Shown here one piece after another: positions 51,597 through 59,007 of a stretch of DNA of 64,000 bases. The position numbers and the translations under genes are program-made. Source of the stretch: Salinigranum rubrum (GTDB taxonomy: Archaea > Halobacteriota > Halobacteria > Halobacteriales > Haloferacaceae). The DNA lies in assembly GCF_002906575.1 (NCBI RefSeq), contig NZ_CP026309.1:1364001-1428000 (forward strand), in the 5' to 3' direction. The stretch's first letter is position 1. Every line of letters begins with the position of its first letter. The notes beneath the pieces are model-generated. The model saw only the letters and a list, made by a program, of their open reading frames with translations. It ran no database searches and was not told the origin of the DNA.

Positions 51597-51696
51597 CCGT
51601 CGTAGTACAAAACCGTGTCGGTAAGTGACACGGGAGGAGACGAGCGGCGGAGGTGCTGAAACCGTCGTTCGAGGCGTTCGGTCGTCGCTCGGGCGA

Positions 51697-52644
51697 TTAC
51701 ATGTAGCCGAGGTCGCGGAGACGCTCCATGAGGTTCTCCTTGTCCTGGGCGCGGCCGGCGCGCTCGGTGGTGTTTTCGAGGTCTTGAATCCACGCGGGCC
51801 GGTCGTCGGACTTCTCGGAACCCGTCTCGGTTCCCAGCGAACGGAAGCCCTCGAAGTACTTCTCGGGGACCGGGATGTCCTCGATGGCGACACCCTCGGG
51901 GAGGTCGGCGCGCGACTGCGGGACGTGGCCGGCGGGGTACCCCTCGACGGAGTCGGGCACGACGAACTGCCAGAACGCCTCCCAGAGATCGGCCTCCGTG
52001 AACTGGAGGATGGGGTTGACCCTGTCGTGGGGCGGGTACTTCTCGGCGTCGTGTCGGGGGGAGAAGAACGTCTCCTCGGCTCTCGAAGCCTGCTCGTCCC
52101 ACCGCACCCCCGAGAAGACGCCGTCGAAGCCGTACTCGACGATGGCGTTGTTGAGCGCGACGGTCTTCAGCAGGTGGTTGCCCTCGAACGTGTCGGGGTC
52201 GACGACCATCGTCTCCCCCTCGTGTTCGATGCGTTCGAGTTCGCGTCGGTTCTGCTCGTTCAGGTCCTCGACTCGGACCTCGTCGCCGAACTCCCAGCCG
52301 TGGTCGAAGAAGTCCTCGTTGCGGGCGACGACGAGGTCGAGGTCCCACTCGTCGACCCAGTGGTCGACGAAGACGCGGACGTCGTCGAGGCCCTCGAAAT
52401 GCTCGATGTACACCACGGGAGGCACGGGGACGCCCATGTCCGCACACACCTCGCGGACGACGTAGAGGACGAGCGTCGAGTCCTTGCCGCCGGTCCACAT
52501 GACGGCGGGCGTCTCGTACTGTTCGAGCGCCGTACGGGTGACGTCGGCGGCCCGTTCGAGTTTCTCTTCGAGGGTCGGGTAGTCGCCGGCGGTCTGGCCG
52601 GCGCCGAGCGCGTAGTCCACAGCGACGTGGTCCAGGGAGGTCAT
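51697..52644 (-). CDS. PP-loop (PAPS reductase-like) family protein, paralog 2
   Basis: A 315-residue protein with the PP-loop VMWTGGKDSTLVLYVV near residue 50 and a downstream GVRWDEQASRAEETFFSPRH motif followed by YPPHDRVNPILQFTEADLWEAFW. These belong to the phosphoadenosine-phosphosulfate reductase/ATP-PPase superfamily. The sulfate-reductase C-terminal redox Cys is not seen, so it may act on another adenylated intermediate. The C-terminus (DLENTTERAGRAQDKENLME) is almost identical to that of the neighbouring paralog, so the pair arose by tandem duplication. Confidence 0.85.
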   Translation of the reverse strand: MTSLDHVAVDYALGAGQTAGDYPTLEEKLERAADVTRTALEQYETPAVMWTGGKDSTLVLYVVREVCADMGVPVPPVVYIEHFEGLDDVRVFVDHWVDEWDLDLVVARNEDFFDHGWEFGDEVRVEDLNEQNRRELERIEHEGETMVVDPDTFEGNHLLKTVALNNAIVEYGFDGVFSGVRWDEQASRAEETFFSPRHDAEKYPPHDRVNPILQFTEADLWEAFWQFVVPDSVEGYPAGHVPQSRADLPEGVAIEDIPVPEKYFEGFRSLGTETGSEKSDDRPAWIQDLENTTERAGRAQDKENLMERLRDLGYM

Positions 52645-52691: not shown

Positions 52692-52914
52692 TTCTTTCCC
52701 CGAAGTAGGTCCGGCCTACGCCCGACCGACGGGTGCAGTTTGGGCCGGTAGGAACTGCTTACCGCGACGTCCCTGGCGGCATCCGTGTGGATTCGTGTGC
52801 GTCCGGTCGTTCCGAGTCGAAAATCCGAGACGACGCGACGGGCCGCGAAAGAGCGGTCGGTCGATCAGCCGAGCGGTCGCCGCACGCGGGTGCGGTGAGT
52901 AGCGTGACCCGTCG

Positions 52915-53880
52915 TCACATGTAACCCAGGTCGCGGAGGCGCTCCATGAGGTCCTCCTTGTCCTGGGCGCGGCCGGCGCGCTCGGTGGTGTTCTCCATGT
53001 CCTGCAGCCAGGCGGGTTCGTCGGCGGACTTGTCCGTCGACACCTCGCTGCCCAGCGAACGGAAGCCAGCGAAGTACTTGGGCGAGACGGGGATGTCGGC
53101 CATCGTCAGGCCCTCGGGCAGGTCCTCGTCGTTCTGGGGGACGTGCCCCGCCGGGTAGCCCTCGACGGTTTCGGGCACGACGAAGTTCCAGAACGCGTCC
53201 CAGACGTCCGGTTCGGCGAACTGGAGGATGGGTTGGATGCGGTCGTGCGGCGGGTATATGTCGGGGTCGTGCCGCGGCGAGAAGAACGTCTCGTCGGCGC
53301 GGGCTTCCTGTTCGTCCCACCGCACACCGGAGATGACGCCGTCGACGTCGTACTCTTCGAGGGCGTCGTTCAGCGCGACGGTCTTCAGCAGGTGGTTGCC
53401 GACGTACGTGTCGAGCAGGAACGGGAAGGTGTCCTCCTCGTACTCCAGCAGGTTGCGGATGTGGTGCTGGTTGTGCTCCGACAGCGCCTCGACCGGGATG
53501 TCGTCGCCCGGGGTGAGACCGTTCTCGTCGACGTACTCGCCGACGTCGGTGTTGCGCGCCCAGATGACGTCGAGGTCCCACTCGTCGGCCCAGTGCTTAC
53601 AGAAGTCGATGAGTTCGTCGAAGTGCTGGTAGTGGTCGATGAACACGACCGGCGGGACGTCGAGGTCGTGCTGCTCGGCGACCTCCTTGACGAAGTACAG
53701 CGTCAGCGTCGAGTCCTTGCCACCGGTCCACATCACGACGGGGTTCTCGTACTGCTCGAGTCCCGTCTTGGTGACCTCGATGGCCTTCTCGATCTTGTGC
53801 TCGATGCTCGGGTAGTCCTCCGGTTCTTCACCCTCGCCGTCGCTGTAGTCGACGTCGAGGTAGTCGGGGAACGCTGACAT
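52915..53880 (-). CDS. PP-loop (PAPS reductase-like) family protein, paralog 1
   Basis: A 321-residue homolog of the gene downstream, with PP-loop VVMWTGGKDSTLTLYFVKEV, GVRWDEQEARADETFFSPRH and the shared C-terminal block MENTTERAGRAQDKEDLMERL. PAPS-reductase-like proteins activate or use adenylated substrates; exact chemistry is unknown. Sequence divergence between the two is greatest around residues 100-165, the likely specificity region. A 16-bp near-palindrome (53885-53900) directly precedes the ATG at 53880. Confidence 0.87.
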   Translation of the reverse strand: MSAFPDYLDVDYSDGEGEEPEDYPSIEHKIEKAIEVTKTGLEQYENPVVMWTGGKDSTLTLYFVKEVAEQHDLDVPPVVFIDHYQHFDELIDFCKHWADEWDLDVIWARNTDVGEYVDENGLTPGDDIPVEALSEHNQHHIRNLLEYEEDTFPFLLDTYVGNHLLKTVALNDALEEYDVDGVISGVRWDEQEARADETFFSPRHDPDIYPPHDRIQPILQFAEPDVWDAFWNFVVPETVEGYPAGHVPQNDEDLPEGLTMADIPVSPKYFAGFRSLGSEVSTDKSADEPAWLQDMENTTERAGRAQDKEDLMERLRDLGYM

Positions 53881-53900: not shown

Positions 53901-54437
53901 CGGGGGTGAAAGGCCTTGTGACTGATAGCTGGTGTGTGGTGGGATGTCACAACCCCTGGTCGTTCGGTCGTGGTCCGGCCAGCACCCCGACGACAGTGAG
54001 ACACGGTGTTCATCGCCTCGATACGCGAGGGCGAGACGCGGTGGACATCCTCGGTGTGTGTCTGCGCGAACACGCGAGAGCGCAGGACACCGGGTTCTTC
54101 ACGGCGAGGATGCCCTCGTGGGGCGACTGGTCGTCGGACCGACAGTCGCCCTCGAAGGCTTCGTCGTCGCGTCCGCCGACCGTGTTCGGGTCGCTGTCCT
54201 GCGATGTGTTCCCGGTGCTTTCGTCACGTGAACACCGTCGTTCGACAGAGAATATTCTGCAGATGAACAGGTCGGACGAACCGACTGGACGTGCTCCACA
54301 GGTGCCGTTCTCGATAACGACGGCTGTCCAACCGCTCTCGATGATATTTAACTTATATATAATACGTTAATTTATTAATCGTCTGTGATGTGAATTAGAA
54401 ATACATTTATTGTGTCATACACTTTGATGTATCAGAC
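53901..54437. other. AT-rich promoter region of the GMC operon; no gene
   Basis: No frame here is convincingly coding. The last about 100 bases are strongly AT-rich (GATATTTAACTTATATATAA near 54340-54360), with several TATA-like elements, and TACACTTTGATGTA, an imperfect inverted repeat, lies about 20 bp before the first gene of the oxidoreductase operon. The rest is ordinary GC-rich spacer. Confidence 0.55.
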
Positions 54438-55402
54438 ATGAAACGTCGAACGAACGCCGGAGACGCGCGAGCGTCCACAGCGGTGGCCTCCGGCAACGTC
54501 CTCCTCACTACCGTCGTGGGGGCTCTGCTCGTAGCCCTCGCGTCGGAGACACCGCTCACGGTGGCTGCCGTGGGTGGCGCCCTCGTCGCCCTGTCTCTCC
54601 TCGTCGGACCTGTTGCAGCGGTCGGTGGTGCCGCCGGACTGCTTGTCCACGACCTGCTCCTCGGGTCGGTCGGCTACTGGACTCCGGTCGCTGCCGTCTG
54701 GATACTCGTGTTCGTCGGGGTCGTCACCTGGCTCGCTCCCGACCTGCCCTCCGAACGCGACACGGAGTCACCGAACGCGGTTCGCCGCGCAGTTTTCCGG
54801 TACGTCGTCGTCGCCGTCGTCGCCTGTACGTACGCGACGGCACTGGCGGCGTGGCTCACGTTCGTCCTGGGGGGCAGCGGTTCTACACGGCCGTCTCCGG
54901 GTTGCTTCTCGGGGCCGTGTTCGCCGTCGGGATCGGGCTCCCGGTTCTGCTCCTCGCCTCCGGCCGACCCAGTAGACGAATCGACCTCCCGGTCGGGCGC
55001 GGTCACACACTCACGTTCTCGATTCGTGGGACCGATCCGGAAACACGAGGCTCCGCTCGCCCGGGTGGCCCGACGCTTCGGGCCCTTCTGGGACTGTTCG
55101 CGCTCGGCGTCGTGTGGCTCGGCTGTGCAGCAGTCCTCGACGTGCTCGCACACGACATGGTCCGGTTCGAAACCGTCGCCCAGCTTCGGCAGTACGTCGG
55201 GGGAACCTTCGGCGACTCGTCGCTTGCGACCGTCGTGACGGCCGGCCTCGTCGGCATCTACCGGTACGGTGAGCTAGCGGTGCGTCTCTCCGCCCCGGTC
55301 GTGGCCGTCGTGGTGTGGTTCCTATACGGTCGCGAGGGACGGCTCTTCGGGCCAATGTCTCGGAGACTCGACACGGTCCAGTGGAAGATATCCGATGACT
55401 GA
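54438..55402 (+). pseudogene. Multi-helix membrane protein of a GMC-oxidoreductase operon (frame broken at 54869-54874)
   Basis: After repair a 321-residue protein with about eight helices (VLLTTVVGALLVALASE, VALSLLVGPVAAVGGAAGLL, TPVAAVWILVFVGVVTWLAP and others). One G added to GGGGGG at 54869-54874 joins LTFVLGG to GQRFYTAVSGLLLGAVFAVG. No family is recognised. It overlaps the next gene by 8 bp and heads the three-gene operon, so it may anchor the dehydrogenase or accept its electrons, though no haem-ligand pattern is evident. Confidence 0.72.
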
Positions 55403-56003
55403 ACGCCCGCGCCGAGCGGACGAACCTCAGGACGAGTCAGCCGCTCCGACGAGACGACAGTTCCTCACCGCACTCGGTGGAATCGGGATCGCGGTTGCGA
55501 GCGCTGGGGACGGGGGGCAATCGACGGCGGGACCAGTCGTCGCCGAGCGGTCCCGATGGACAGAGGCCCCGTCCTCACAGTACCACGTCCGGGTGGCAAC
55601 GGCCGTCGCGGACGCGGTGTACCCCCCTTCGATTTCCGTCGACGAGTCGTTCGTCGAGCGACGCGTGTTCGGGCGGGTCGAACCCACTCCGGGACACTTC
55701 GACGAACTGCTCGACACTATCGAGGTGGTCGATAGGTACGCAAGAACACGGTTCGGGAGTCGGGTCCCCGCGCTCTCCCCGGCTGCCCGTCGCCAGGCGC
55801 TGCAGTCGATGGGTGTGACGGCGGTCCATCCGACCGCCGACGGCACGACGGCCGAGCGAGTCCGGTACTACCTCGTGAACGACCTGCTGTTCGCGCTCTT
55901 CACGTCTCCGAAGAGCAGCGAACGGACGGGTGTCGACAACCCACCTGGGTATCCCGGCGGACGCGAGGCGTACCAGCGCCCACCGGGGGGTGCTGACCGA
56001 TGA
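55395..56003 (+). CDS. Gluconate 2-dehydrogenase subunit 3-like Tat protein
   Basis: A 202-residue protein. The N-terminus TRRQFLTALGGIGIAVASAG is a Tat signal. The body, with ATAVADAVYPP, FDELLDTIEVVDRYARTRFG and YYLVNDLLFALFTSPKSSER, matches the gluconate 2-dehydrogenase subunit 3 family, whose members escort GMC-type catalytic subunits across the membrane. It overlaps the upstream membrane-protein gene by 8 bp and the GMC gene by 4 bp. The GMC subunit lacks its own signal, so hitch-hiker export through this protein fits. Confidence 0.85.
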   Translation: MTERPRRADEPQDESAAPTRRQFLTALGGIGIAVASAGDGGQSTAGPVVAERSRWTEAPSSQYHVRVATAVADAVYPPSISVDESFVERRVFGRVEPTPGHFDELLDTIEVVDRYARTRFGSRVPALSPAARRQALQSMGVTAVHPTADGTTAERVRYYLVNDLLFALFTSPKSSERTGVDNPPGYPGGREAYQRPPGGADR

Positions 56004-57676
56004 CGGCTGCCGTCGACCGGACGCCGTCGGAAGCCGACGTCTGTGTCGTCGGGGCGGGTCCGGCCGGTGCCTTCGTCGCTCACTCGCTTGCCAGCAGGGG
56101 ACACGACGTCGTCGTCCTCGAAGCCGGGGAGCGTCTGAACGCCGAAGACCACCATCGCCGGATGGAGATGTGGCTGCGTCCGGTGTTCGAGCGCAACGAG
56201 TTCTGGTTCGACAGGGCACGGGACGCGTACACCTCCACCGGAGACATCTACGCGCGACTGAACCTGGTCCGCGTGAAGGCGGTCGGCGGTACGTCCCTAC
56301 ACTGGGACGGGAACACGCCTCGGCTCCACGAGAAGGACTTCGAGATGAACACCCGGTACGGGCTGGCGCGCGACTGGCCCATTAGCTACGACGACCTTCG
56401 GCCCTACTACGCCCGCGCCGAACGGGAGATGGGCGTCTCGGGGATCGACGACAACCCCCACGGGCCACCACGAGCGGAGTCGTATCCGATGGAGGGCTTC
56501 CCACCGAGTTACTCGGACTCGCTCTTCGCCGACGCCTGCGACGAACTCGGCATTTCGATGGCGACCCAGCCGAAAGCGATCAACTCCGAATCGTACGACG
56601 ACCGATCCGGCTGTATCGGGTACGGTGTCTGCAACGCCTGTCCGTCCGGTGCGAAGTACAGCGCCGACGTCCACGTCCGGAAGGCCGAATCAGAGGGAGC
56701 GCGGGTCATCGACCAGGTGCAGGTGTTGTCCGTCGAACACGACCGTGACGGGGAGGCCGTCGAATCGGTCGTCTACGTGACTCCAGACGGCACCGAGTAC
56801 CGCCAGGAAGCGGACCACTTCGTCATCGCCTGCGGCGGCATCGAGACGCCGCGGCTGTTGCTCCTCTCCGACTCCTCGGAGTACCCGGACGGACTGGCCA
56901 ACTCCAGCGGTGCCGTCGGTCGGTATCTGATGGACCACCCGAACGTCTCGACGGAGGCACAGCTCGACGAGCCGACGCGGCAGAACAACATCGGCTGGGT
57001 CTCCAGCCGGAGTGACCAGTTCTACGACCACGACGAGCCGTCCCCCGGGAGCTTCCACCTCACTTTCAGCAACACCGCCAAGCAGACCTGGGGTGGCGCG
57101 CAGGCGAAGCAGACGGCCACCGCGAACCTCCTCAAAACGCTCGGGTCCATGACACCCTCTGCGTTCATCGAGTGGCTCGGCGACCCGCTCGACGAGACGA
57201 AACTCGGTGACGACCTCGCGTTTCCGACGACTGACGGGCCGCCGTACCCGCTTTCGGTCCGCGGTGCGGGCGAGATGCTCCCTCGCGCCGGAAACCGGGT
57301 GACTCTCGACCGCTCGAAGACGGACAGTTTCGGACGACCGGTTCCATCGATTCAGCTCTCCGACGGCGCACACGCCCAGCAGACGATGGAGCACTGTCTC
57401 GAAGTTCAGGAGTCAATCATGCAAACGCTCGGAGCAGACATCACCGGCGTGTCGACGCTCGCGGACCGCGACATGGGCTCACACCACATGGGAACGACGA
57501 GGATGGGCACCGACCCAGCGGAGAGCGTCGTGAACGAGGAGTGCCGCACGCACGACCTTGAGAACCTCTGGATCTCGTCGTCGAGCGTGTTCACTACCGG
57601 TGGCGCGAACAATCCGACGCTGACCATCGCCGCCCTCGCACTCAAGACGGCCGACCACATCGACGACAGACTCTGA
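56000..57676 (+). CDS. GMC family FAD-dependent oxidoreductase
   Basis: A 558-residue flavoenzyme. The FAD motif DVCVVGAGPAGAFVAHSLAS lies at about residues 13-32, the substrate/FAD segment KAVGGTSLHWDGN near 95, and the C-terminal active-site region has GSHHMGTTRMG (catalytic His) and GGANNPTLTIAALAL. A Cys pair in SGCIGYGVCNACPSGAKYS resembles the ferredoxin-like or disulfide loop of sugar dehydrogenase large subunits. It would oxidise a sugar or alcohol outside the cell. It has no signal of its own; export is probably with the subunit-3 protein. Confidence 0.88.
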   Translation: MTAAVDRTPSEADVCVVGAGPAGAFVAHSLASRGHDVVVLEAGERLNAEDHHRRMEMWLRPVFERNEFWFDRARDAYTSTGDIYARLNLVRVKAVGGTSLHWDGNTPRLHEKDFEMNTRYGLARDWPISYDDLRPYYARAEREMGVSGIDDNPHGPPRAESYPMEGFPPSYSDSLFADACDELGISMATQPKAINSESYDDRSGCIGYGVCNACPSGAKYSADVHVRKAESEGARVIDQVQVLSVEHDRDGEAVESVVYVTPDGTEYRQEADHFVIACGGIETPRLLLLSDSSEYPDGLANSSGAVGRYLMDHPNVSTEAQLDEPTRQNNIGWVSSRSDQFYDHDEPSPGSFHLTFSNTAKQTWGGAQAKQTATANLLKTLGSMTPSAFIEWLGDPLDETKLGDDLAFPTTDGPPYPLSVRGAGEMLPRAGNRVTLDRSKTDSFGRPVPSIQLSDGAHAQQTMEHCLEVQESIMQTLGADITGVSTLADRDMGSHHMGTTRMGTDPAESVVNEECRTHDLENLWISSSSVFTTGGANNPTLTIAALALKTADHIDDRL

Positions 57677-58009
57677 CCACGGGGGGCTCGGCCCTCGGCC
57701 GGAACGAACCGTTCACACGACTGGTCGCGACGGTATCGACGCCGAGTCGAGAGCGGACGAACGCCCATCGCTGTACTCGGACGTCAGGTACCTCCACTGC
57801 GAAAGTCACGCGAGGAACTCGCGCGTCACGTCCGAATATAGAACTGTTGTACGATGCTACCGAGGTCATGGGGGGTCTCGTCGGGGCACGTCGGACTCGC
57901 AGTGTCCGACAGATCCCATGTCGACCTCCGACCCCAAGTGTGCGACCGGGCCGGACGGAGGTCGTGACTCTTCGCGGTCACCCGCGGTACAACGGACAGA
58001 ACCGTCGCG
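57677..58009. other. Intergenic region downstream of the GMC operon; nothing recognised
   Basis: No reading frame, RNA gene or repeat can be supported. The region separates the GMC operon from the oppositely oriented PHD-like gene, so it should contain the two convergent 3' ends. Confidence 0.5.
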
Positions 58010-58183
58010 TCAGAACCCGCCGACGCTGATCCACGCCTCGTCGGCACAGCGCGGACAGTAATCGTCCTCACGTTCCGCCAGACACACTCGATGACACCAG
58101 ATGTGGCAGTGTTCGCACTTCACCATGTCGTCACTCCGACCCAACGGTTCGCCGCAGAGGGAACATCGCTTCAAACCGACCAT
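58010..58183 (-). CDS. 57-residue C4HC3 (PHD/RING-like) zinc-finger protein
   Basis: ATG 58183 opens a frame with eight regularly spaced metal-ligand candidates: C7-x2-C10-x12-C23-x2-C26-x4-H31-x2-C34-x8-C43-x2-C46. The central part CEHCHIWCHRVC carries a Trp two residues before the His, as in PHD fingers. The pattern is C4HC3, a cross-brace arrangement binding two zinc ions, and the finger is nearly the whole protein. A double zinc ribbon is an alternative. The function is unknown; such a domain would bind a protein or peptide. It is isolated, with its own promoter on the minus strand. Confidence 0.75.
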   Translation of the reverse strand: MVGLKRCSLCGEPLGRSDDMVKCEHCHIWCHRVCLAEREDDYCPRCADEAWISVGGF

Positions 58184-58443
58184 ACCCGAGTAGACGACGA
58201 AGAGCGAGAAAAACCTTCAGTGGCCATCTGGAGGGGAGAAGAGCCTGAGGGAACGCAGCAAACCCGTCCGTCGCACCAGCGCCGAGTCACCCACTCTCGA
58301 ATCGGGATCGAACTATCTCGTATCCGCCAGCGTTGCCCCCACACGTTCAGGACGTCTGACACATCGACTTCGTGGGGGCATCTGCGGGCGGGCTACAGAG
58401 TAGATCCTACCGAGTAGGTCCCGGGAGAATACGGAGTTCCTCT

Positions 58444-59007
58444 CTAGCTAATGAACTTGTTGTCGCGCCAGTTCACCGTGTTCCCGCCGCCGTTGTTCTG
58501 TTGAGGGTTCTCGACGACCTCCACGGACGCCGCGCGCTCCTCGCCTTCGACGATGCGGGTCGCGTGCAGGTCGCCGTCCTCCTCGGTCACGGCAGTCAGC
58601 GTCCCCTTCTCGGCGAGACGGGCGAGGTCACGCAGGACGAGGAACATCGGGTACTGCAGCGCCGTGTTCTGGAGGACGGTCTCGCGGTCGCCCTTGAAGC
58701 AGGCGAACTCGACGAGTTCGGAGGGGATTTCCTCTTCCTCCTCGCCCCAGCGGGGCGCGCCGGCGCGCGGCGGTTCCTCCTCGTAGACGCGGTTCTCGGT
58801 GACGCTCGCTTTCAGCTGTGCGGTCGGGGTGTACTTGCTGAGCGACTCGTCCTTGGCGACGGCCTTGATGATGAGTGTGTTGTTCCGTCGGGTGATGTCG
58901 ATATCCTCGATTTCCGGGGGAAGCTCCGGGTCGTTCTCGAAGTAGTCAGTGACTGTTTCGAGCGGCAGTTCCAGTGTCGAGTGAAGTCGGAATACGCGGC
59001 CTGACAT
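58444..59007 (-). CDS. DUF7110-like haloarchaeal protein
   Basis: A 187-residue acidic protein beginning MSGRVFRLHSTLELPLETVT. Features are a strand/helix DYFENDPELPPEIEDIDITR, an acidic run GEEEEEIPSELVEFACFKGD, the block NTALQYPMFLVLRDLARLAE, and a C-terminal NPQQNNGGGNTVNW tail. I associate this pattern with the haloarchaeal family DUF7110; its role is unknown. The ATG is preceded by an AT-rich TATA-like stretch near 59075-59090. Confidence 0.7.
   Translation of the reverse strand: MSGRVFRLHSTLELPLETVTDYFENDPELPPEIEDIDITRRNNTLIIKAVAKDESLSKYTPTAQLKASVTENRVYEEEPPRAGAPRWGEEEEEIPSELVEFACFKGDRETVLQNTALQYPMFLVLRDLARLAEKGTLTAVTEEDGDLHATRIVEGEERAASVEVVENPQQNNGGGNTVNWRDNKFIS

Follow-up and report, generated by a model that had tools for sequence, protein, structure and literature searches.

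A 57-residue predicted C4HC3 zinc-finger micro-protein of Salinigranum rubrum and its seemingly undescribed small family in haloarchaea

The described systems closest to the protein reported here are the PHD, RING, and C1 fingers, the Prok-RING_1 family, and the small zinc-finger proteins of haloarchaea. PHD fingers have a loop of about 12 or more residues between their sixth and seventh ligands (C6-C7), and the ligand series of C1 domains begins with a His. Prokaryotic RING-like binuclear treble clefs are a known class, reportedly treated as such by Burroughs et al. in 2011. The haloarchaeal C(P)XCG micro-proteins (HVO_0758, HVO_2753, and Brz) are free-standing single zinc fingers of <70 aa (PMC6562870, PMC11241148). 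Deletion of one-domain zinc-finger micro-proteins in Haloferax volcanii produced phenotypes in 12 of 16 cases (PMC6562870), Brz is reported to regulate bop (PMC2253796), and HVO_2753 contains four motifs and binds one zinc (PMC11241148). The protein described below resembles these micro-proteins in being small and free-standing; however, it has eight ligands in a PHD-like order that includes a His, followed by a conserved C-terminal tail. It contains one CxxCG motif (CSLCG); two or three are found in most members of branch C of its family, as defined below.

The window (the whole stretch of DNA that was analysed, 64,000 nucleotides of S. rubrum contig NZ_CP026309.1) encodes this protein on its minus strand as MVGLKRCSLCGEPLGRSDDMVKCEHCHIWCHRVCLAEREDDYCPRCADEAWISVGGF, followed by the stop codon; the plus-strand frame over the same positions (58010-58183) is unrelated. 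The ligands are C7, C10, C23, C26, H31, C34, C43, and C46, and W29 stands two residues N-terminal of H31. The spacing C-x2-C-x12-C-x2-C-x4-H-x2-C-x8-C-x2-C, given by a first-pass annotation, matches the frame exactly, and its description of the protein as almost entirely a C4HC3 finger holds. The gene and its parts are listed here, with conservation counted in a 42-member alignment of the family.

58010-58183, minus strand: ORF of the stand-alone C4HC3 zinc-finger micro-protein, 57 aa; ATG at 58183, stop at 58012-58010
58154-58165, minus strand: knuckle 1, codons C7-x2-C10; putative zinc site 1, shared with H31 and C34; C7 and C10 both 42/42
58106-58117, minus strand: knuckle 2, codons C23-x2-C26; putative zinc site 2, shared with C43 and C46; C23 41/42, C26 42/42
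58082-58093, minus strand: H31-x2-C34, where the predicted helix begins; putative zinc site 1; His 35/42 or Asp 7/42, C34 42/42
58046-58057, minus strand: last knuckle, C43-P-R-C46; putative zinc site 2; C43 42/42, C46 31/42
58013-58039, minus strand: C-terminal tail E49-A-W-I-S-V-G-G-F57, defined by alignment; family consensus E-x-W-I-G-A-V-E-F

Strict and loosened versions of the ligand pattern occur once in the window and in none of 60 random windows of first-order composition; the chance estimate draws on the window plus homology. The dN/dS is ~0.2, with values of 0.17-0.41 in branch A and mostly 0.04-0.1 (maximum 0.27) in branch B. Because the homologs are under purifying selection, a chance origin of the ORF is excluded, and on sequence grounds the 57-aa frame is a real gene. 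The concern that it could easily be missed was well placed: relatives of the finger gene often go unannotated in plasmid gene tables.

Homologs with conserved ligands in other haloarchaea, on which the first-pass reading depended, were found. Copies in two other Salinigranum species, one of them Salinigranum marinum, are 79-82% identical to the window protein, followed by a relative in Halogranum amylolyticum (67%), an S. marinum plasmid paralog (65%), and relatives in Natrinema caseinilyticum (58-60%). S. rubrum itself carries a more distant paralog on contig C3 (38% identity). A nine-member profile matched 61 of 391 class-level genomes, representing 35 of 86 genera. The family is found in about one-sixth of the sampled haloarchaeal genomes; in the phylum-level genome sample, matches were confined to the window's own order. 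With a few additions from the initial homolog search, we kept a set of 55 sequences from 50 haloarchaeal genomes, leaving L102, L103, L110, L111, and the truncated L083 out of the counts as non-members or fragments. Scanning genome contigs by alignment recovered seven named relatives, compared with zero for a single-protein query of the same collection. Phage records and viral contigs contained no finger relatives and thus give no sign of a viral origin, and a PHROGs search returned weak, uninformative matches only. NCBIfam had no family for the window protein at E < 0.1, and broad family alignments offered no stretch conserved enough to serve as a scan pattern. The family as such, its conserved tail, and the ligand scheme of branch E are new, with no Pfam or NCBIfam model of their own. 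The fingers form a new small family that is widespread in haloarchaea and seemingly undescribed.

We assigned the members to branches A-E by eye prior to building a tree. Tree support is 0.90 for branch A, 0.92 for B, 0.85 for C, and 0.98 for A+B; branches D and E lack support as clades. Branch A is the window type, branch B belongs to metal-resistance plasmid islands, and branch C is chromosomal and comes mostly from one family. Some copies are damaged, including a truncated branch B frame (L083), a relative of branch C that has lost ligands (L102), and a copy with an in-frame TAG (G723:C22:99614-99769). This suggests that finger genes are dispensable in some species.

Among the 42 aligned members, ligands C1, C2, C3, C4, C6, and C7 are invariant or nearly so, and ligand 5 is a His in 35 members and an Asp in the other 7. 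The eighth ligand, C46 in the window protein, is kept in 31 of 42 and is missing in branch E only. Tail position 56 is acidic (Glu or Asp) in 41 of 42, the sole exception being the window copy with G56; at 58013-58021 the window protein terminates in VGGF and its relatives in VVEF, so the conserved tail acid has been lost here (E56 to G).

AlphaFold2, run with the 42-member alignment, gave a model with mean pLDDT 66 and pTM 0.45, with the tail below 50. The modelled elements are strands at 20-22 and 29-31 and helices at 32-38 and 44-50; the strand-strand-helix order, with a helix beginning at H31, corresponds in the model to a treble-clef layout. Nearly all of the 50 solved structures listed by Foldseek are PHD or RING/U-box domains, for example AL3 PHD (probability 0.99), MLL3 PHD6 (probability 0.99), and the RNF165 RING (rmsd 1.9 A over 43 columns), with TM-scores of ~0.5-0.58 and E-values of 0.04 and up. 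A branch C member modelled separately shows the same hairpin-helix and again matches PHD, RING, and C1 structures, at lower scores. Caution is called for, because in haloarchaeal micro-proteins AlphaFold models tetrahedral Cys sites with or without metal (PMC11241148). In a profile search against PDB chains, MLL4/MLL3 PHD6, MTF2 PHD, RING, and C1 domains matched at E-values of 1e-4 to 1e-3, ahead of the zinc ribbons. Model and Foldseek results agree, at moderate model confidence, on a PHD/RING-type rather than a zinc-ribbon fold, so the predicted two-zinc finger of this general type appears mostly right.

The main structural competitor, which we consider unlikely, is a pair of sequential zinc ribbons, one with C7/C10/C23/C26 and the other with H31/C34/C43/C46, or else an RNA or ribosome binder of the HVO_2753 type with one zinc. 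The many CxxC motifs and the 12-residue first loop are compatible with ribbons. So are weak matches of 13 of the 42 members to the zinc-ribbon RNA-binding family NF011481 (E 0.0018 at best) and, at E 0.02, matches to ribosome-associated zinc-ribbon chains; in the PDB profile search, a zinc-ribbon RNA-binding protein likewise reached E 0.02 only. However, PHD, C1, and Prok-RING_1 profiles fit more members with better scores, the models place a helix at H31, and no ribbon appears among the top Foldseek matches; as far as the moderate-confidence model tells, the protein does not fold as two separate ribbons. Branch E offers an independent argument on the pairing of the ligands. In all 15 of its members C3-x2-C4 has become C3-x-C4 and a His four residues after C6 takes the place of C8, while C1-x2-C2 and [H/D]-x2-C6 are retained. 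Zinc site 2 is thus altered as one unit, which fits cross-brace pairing, whereas sequential ribbons would need both sites changed. Branch E was defined partly by the ligand change itself, and the argument concerns which ligands co-vary rather than the status of the branch. The remodelled second site, as read from the alignment, favours cross-brace pairing.

Our preferred reading, which we think somewhat probable, is that the protein is a stand-alone binuclear cross-brace treble-clef finger with a short conserved tail, likely acting as a protein-interaction adaptor or regulator. One zinc would be bound by C7, C10, H31, and C34 and the other by C23, C26, C43, and C46, as the model and the co-variation of ligands suggest. 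The finger would then act as a rigid scaffold, and the tail and/or a helix face may dock on a partner, much like the zinc-finger micro-proteins of haloarchaea. Weighing against this reading are the moderate model confidence, the single zinc of HVO_2753 despite its four motifs, the lack of a family-wide operon partner, and the lost tail acid of the window copy. We infer protein-protein interaction as the role of the family by analogy; given the precedents of the H. volcanii micro-proteins and Brz, a regulatory interaction seems most likely.

Two further features concern the genomic setting:

58184-58224, minus strand: TATA-like box GAAGG-TTTTT within a conserved 40 nt before the ATG; T run at 58213-58209 (-30 to -26)
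53937-58443: accessory strip of ~4.5 kb, missing from three sister species

The box and the ~40 nt upstream are common to branch A loci (e.g., L054, L055, L056, and L126), and sequence farther upstream diverges. Because homology among branch A loci is largely limited to these ~40 nt plus the ORF, the gene appears self-contained; by sequence comparison the promoter-like box and the ORF are a conserved unit, and the transcript is probably leaderless. Besides the finger gene, the strip encodes a GMC oxidoreductase, a gluconate-dehydrogenase-subunit-3-like protein, and a membrane protein. Synteny with three related genomes breaks at ~53936 and restarts at 58444-58451, with otherwise collinear flanks. 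At the left border of the strip lie two adjacent paralogous stretches (51692-52632 and 52910-53818) that cross-match at 72-76%. The three chromosomal Salinigranum copies that we compared have no neighbouring gene in common, and the finger gene is an accessory gene that changes place.

We found no operon partner conserved across the family, so the genome suggests none. Branch C genes lie between birA and tyrS (named by sequence), divergent from one and convergent with the other, and these orientations rule out an operon with either. In the three other branch A copies (S. marinum plasmid, Halogranum, and a Natrinema plasmid), phaC, encoding PHA synthase, lies ~50 nt downstream in convergent orientation. 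At loci L016, L017, and L126, phaC ends ~50 nt from the finger gene in convergent orientation, and L016 and L126 have an F-type ATP synthase operon upstream. Many branch B islands also include phaC, whole or fragmented. We set aside a functional link between phaC and the finger, as shared plasmid ancestry is the simpler account.

The plasmid islands of branch B raise the prospect of metal handling, in which the finger would be a small metal-binding buffer, chaperone, or sensor tied to metal resistance. These islands carry DUF302, SHOCT, plastocyanin, thioredoxin, heavy-metal-associated, and cation P-type ATPase genes, and branch B is sister to A. In every inspected copy, the finger gene of branch B is followed by that of a 73-aa Cys-rich protein (CAYCG...CGSPAYFCNYACLSVY; e.g., L021:5173-5394), which had no Pfam match, and this adjacency also speaks for a metal role, as does the finding that some H. 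volcanii micro-proteins bind a metal other than zinc (PMC11241148). Branches A, C, D, and E, on the other hand, lie outside such islands, no pattern of metal ligands is present in the conserved tail, and B may merely travel with its island. We therefore regard metal handling as doubtful.

Turning from the preferred adaptor reading to the named finger classes, the likeness is one of predicted structure. Against Prok-RING_1 (PF14446), the window protein scores 19.8 bits (cut-off 29.1), and the S. marinum plasmid paralog L055 passes at 33.6; its RefSeq product name is 'RING finger protein'. The Pfam model covers the first 38-43 residues only, however, and omits the family's conserved tail. RING E3 fingers (zf-RING_2; RNF165, Arkadia) share the modelled cross-brace, a hydrophobic residue between C1 and C2, and a CPxC end, but the window protein is C4HC3 rather than C3HC4/C3H2C3, and the members checked score below the cut-off. 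The linchpin Arg/Lys of RINGs after C8 is absent: the window protein has A47, and branches A and B have Ala, Gly, Val, or Ile. A role as a RING-type, E3-like factor in SAMP conjugation, the ubiquitin-like system of archaea, would be consistent with the cross-brace fold, with the hydrophobic C1-C2 residue and the Pro after C7 in branch A, and with the paralog above the Prok-RING_1 cut-off. It would have to do without the linchpin and with a His at ligand 5 that differs from RING-HC. No link to an E2 was seen, and neither E2 nor E3 appears to be required for SAMP conjugation (PMC4197634); we give this reading little credence. An equally slim chance attaches to a broader proposal, in which mini-fingers dock on protein termini or on ubiquitin-like conjugation machinery and the E-x-W-I-G-A-V-E-F tail is a signal or docking motif; the family would then be a prokaryotic, free-standing version of the PHD/RING adaptor principle.

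Ranked by E-value, the C1 domain (PF00130) is the top Pfam match of the window protein (1.3e-4 over residues 5-36), but at 22.2 bits it lies below the cut-off of 26.5, and the finger does not have the leading His of C1. The PHD score (PF00628) is 21.9 bits against a cut-off of 24. The likeness to PHD fingers that the first-pass annotation had stressed stands for the C4HC3 order, the C3-x2-C4-x4-H-x2-C6 core, the treble-clef model, and the best PDB and Foldseek matches. It fails for the C6-C7 loop (7 or 8 residues in branch E and 8 in all other branches), for the residue two before C7 (D41 here, Phe or Tyr in the majority of branch C and D members), and for the sub-cut-off score. The Trp before the His, offered as a PHD hallmark, is present in the window copy but in only 4 of 42 members, three of them Salinigranum chromosomal copies, and the position is mostly Ser, Arg, Gly, Cys, or Glu elsewhere. 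No conserved methyl-lysine or aromatic cage was found in the 42-member alignment, and the finger is stand-alone, outside any chromatin protein. Given the sub-cut-off scores and missing PHD and RING hallmarks, the window protein is not assignable to C1, PHD, or Prok-RING_1. A true PHD finger that reads a modified or free protein N-terminus is most improbable, even with the C4HC3 order, a best PDB sequence match to MLL4 PHD6 (E 1.6e-4), one relative (L090) above the PHD cut-off (29.7), and W29 at the position of the cage Trp in histone readers, because Trp is rare at this position, other cage aromatics are missing, and the C6-C7 loop is short. The suggestion of tail reading likewise found no support, and archaeal histones are mostly tail-less (PMC7990501).

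The statement that such fingers are rarely described in archaea is fair for published papers but not for genomes, since they are common in haloarchaea and one paralog is already named as a RING finger protein in RefSeq. The 57-residue finger offers a minimal, genetically accessible test case for such fingers outside eukaryotes, and its conserved tail provides a handle for a partner search. Speculatively, if the protein did read tails or serve SAMP conjugation, it would inform the question of how PHD/RING adaptors arose. Another group of small proteins from haloarchaea (L134, L136, L138, and L103; frames of ~76-85 aa) has the layout C-x2-C-x~9-12-C-x2-C-x4-H-x2-C, a loop of >20 residues, and C-x2-C. 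Their loop lengths are nearer to those of PHD and RING fingers than the window family's are, and they give weak Prok-RING_1 matches.
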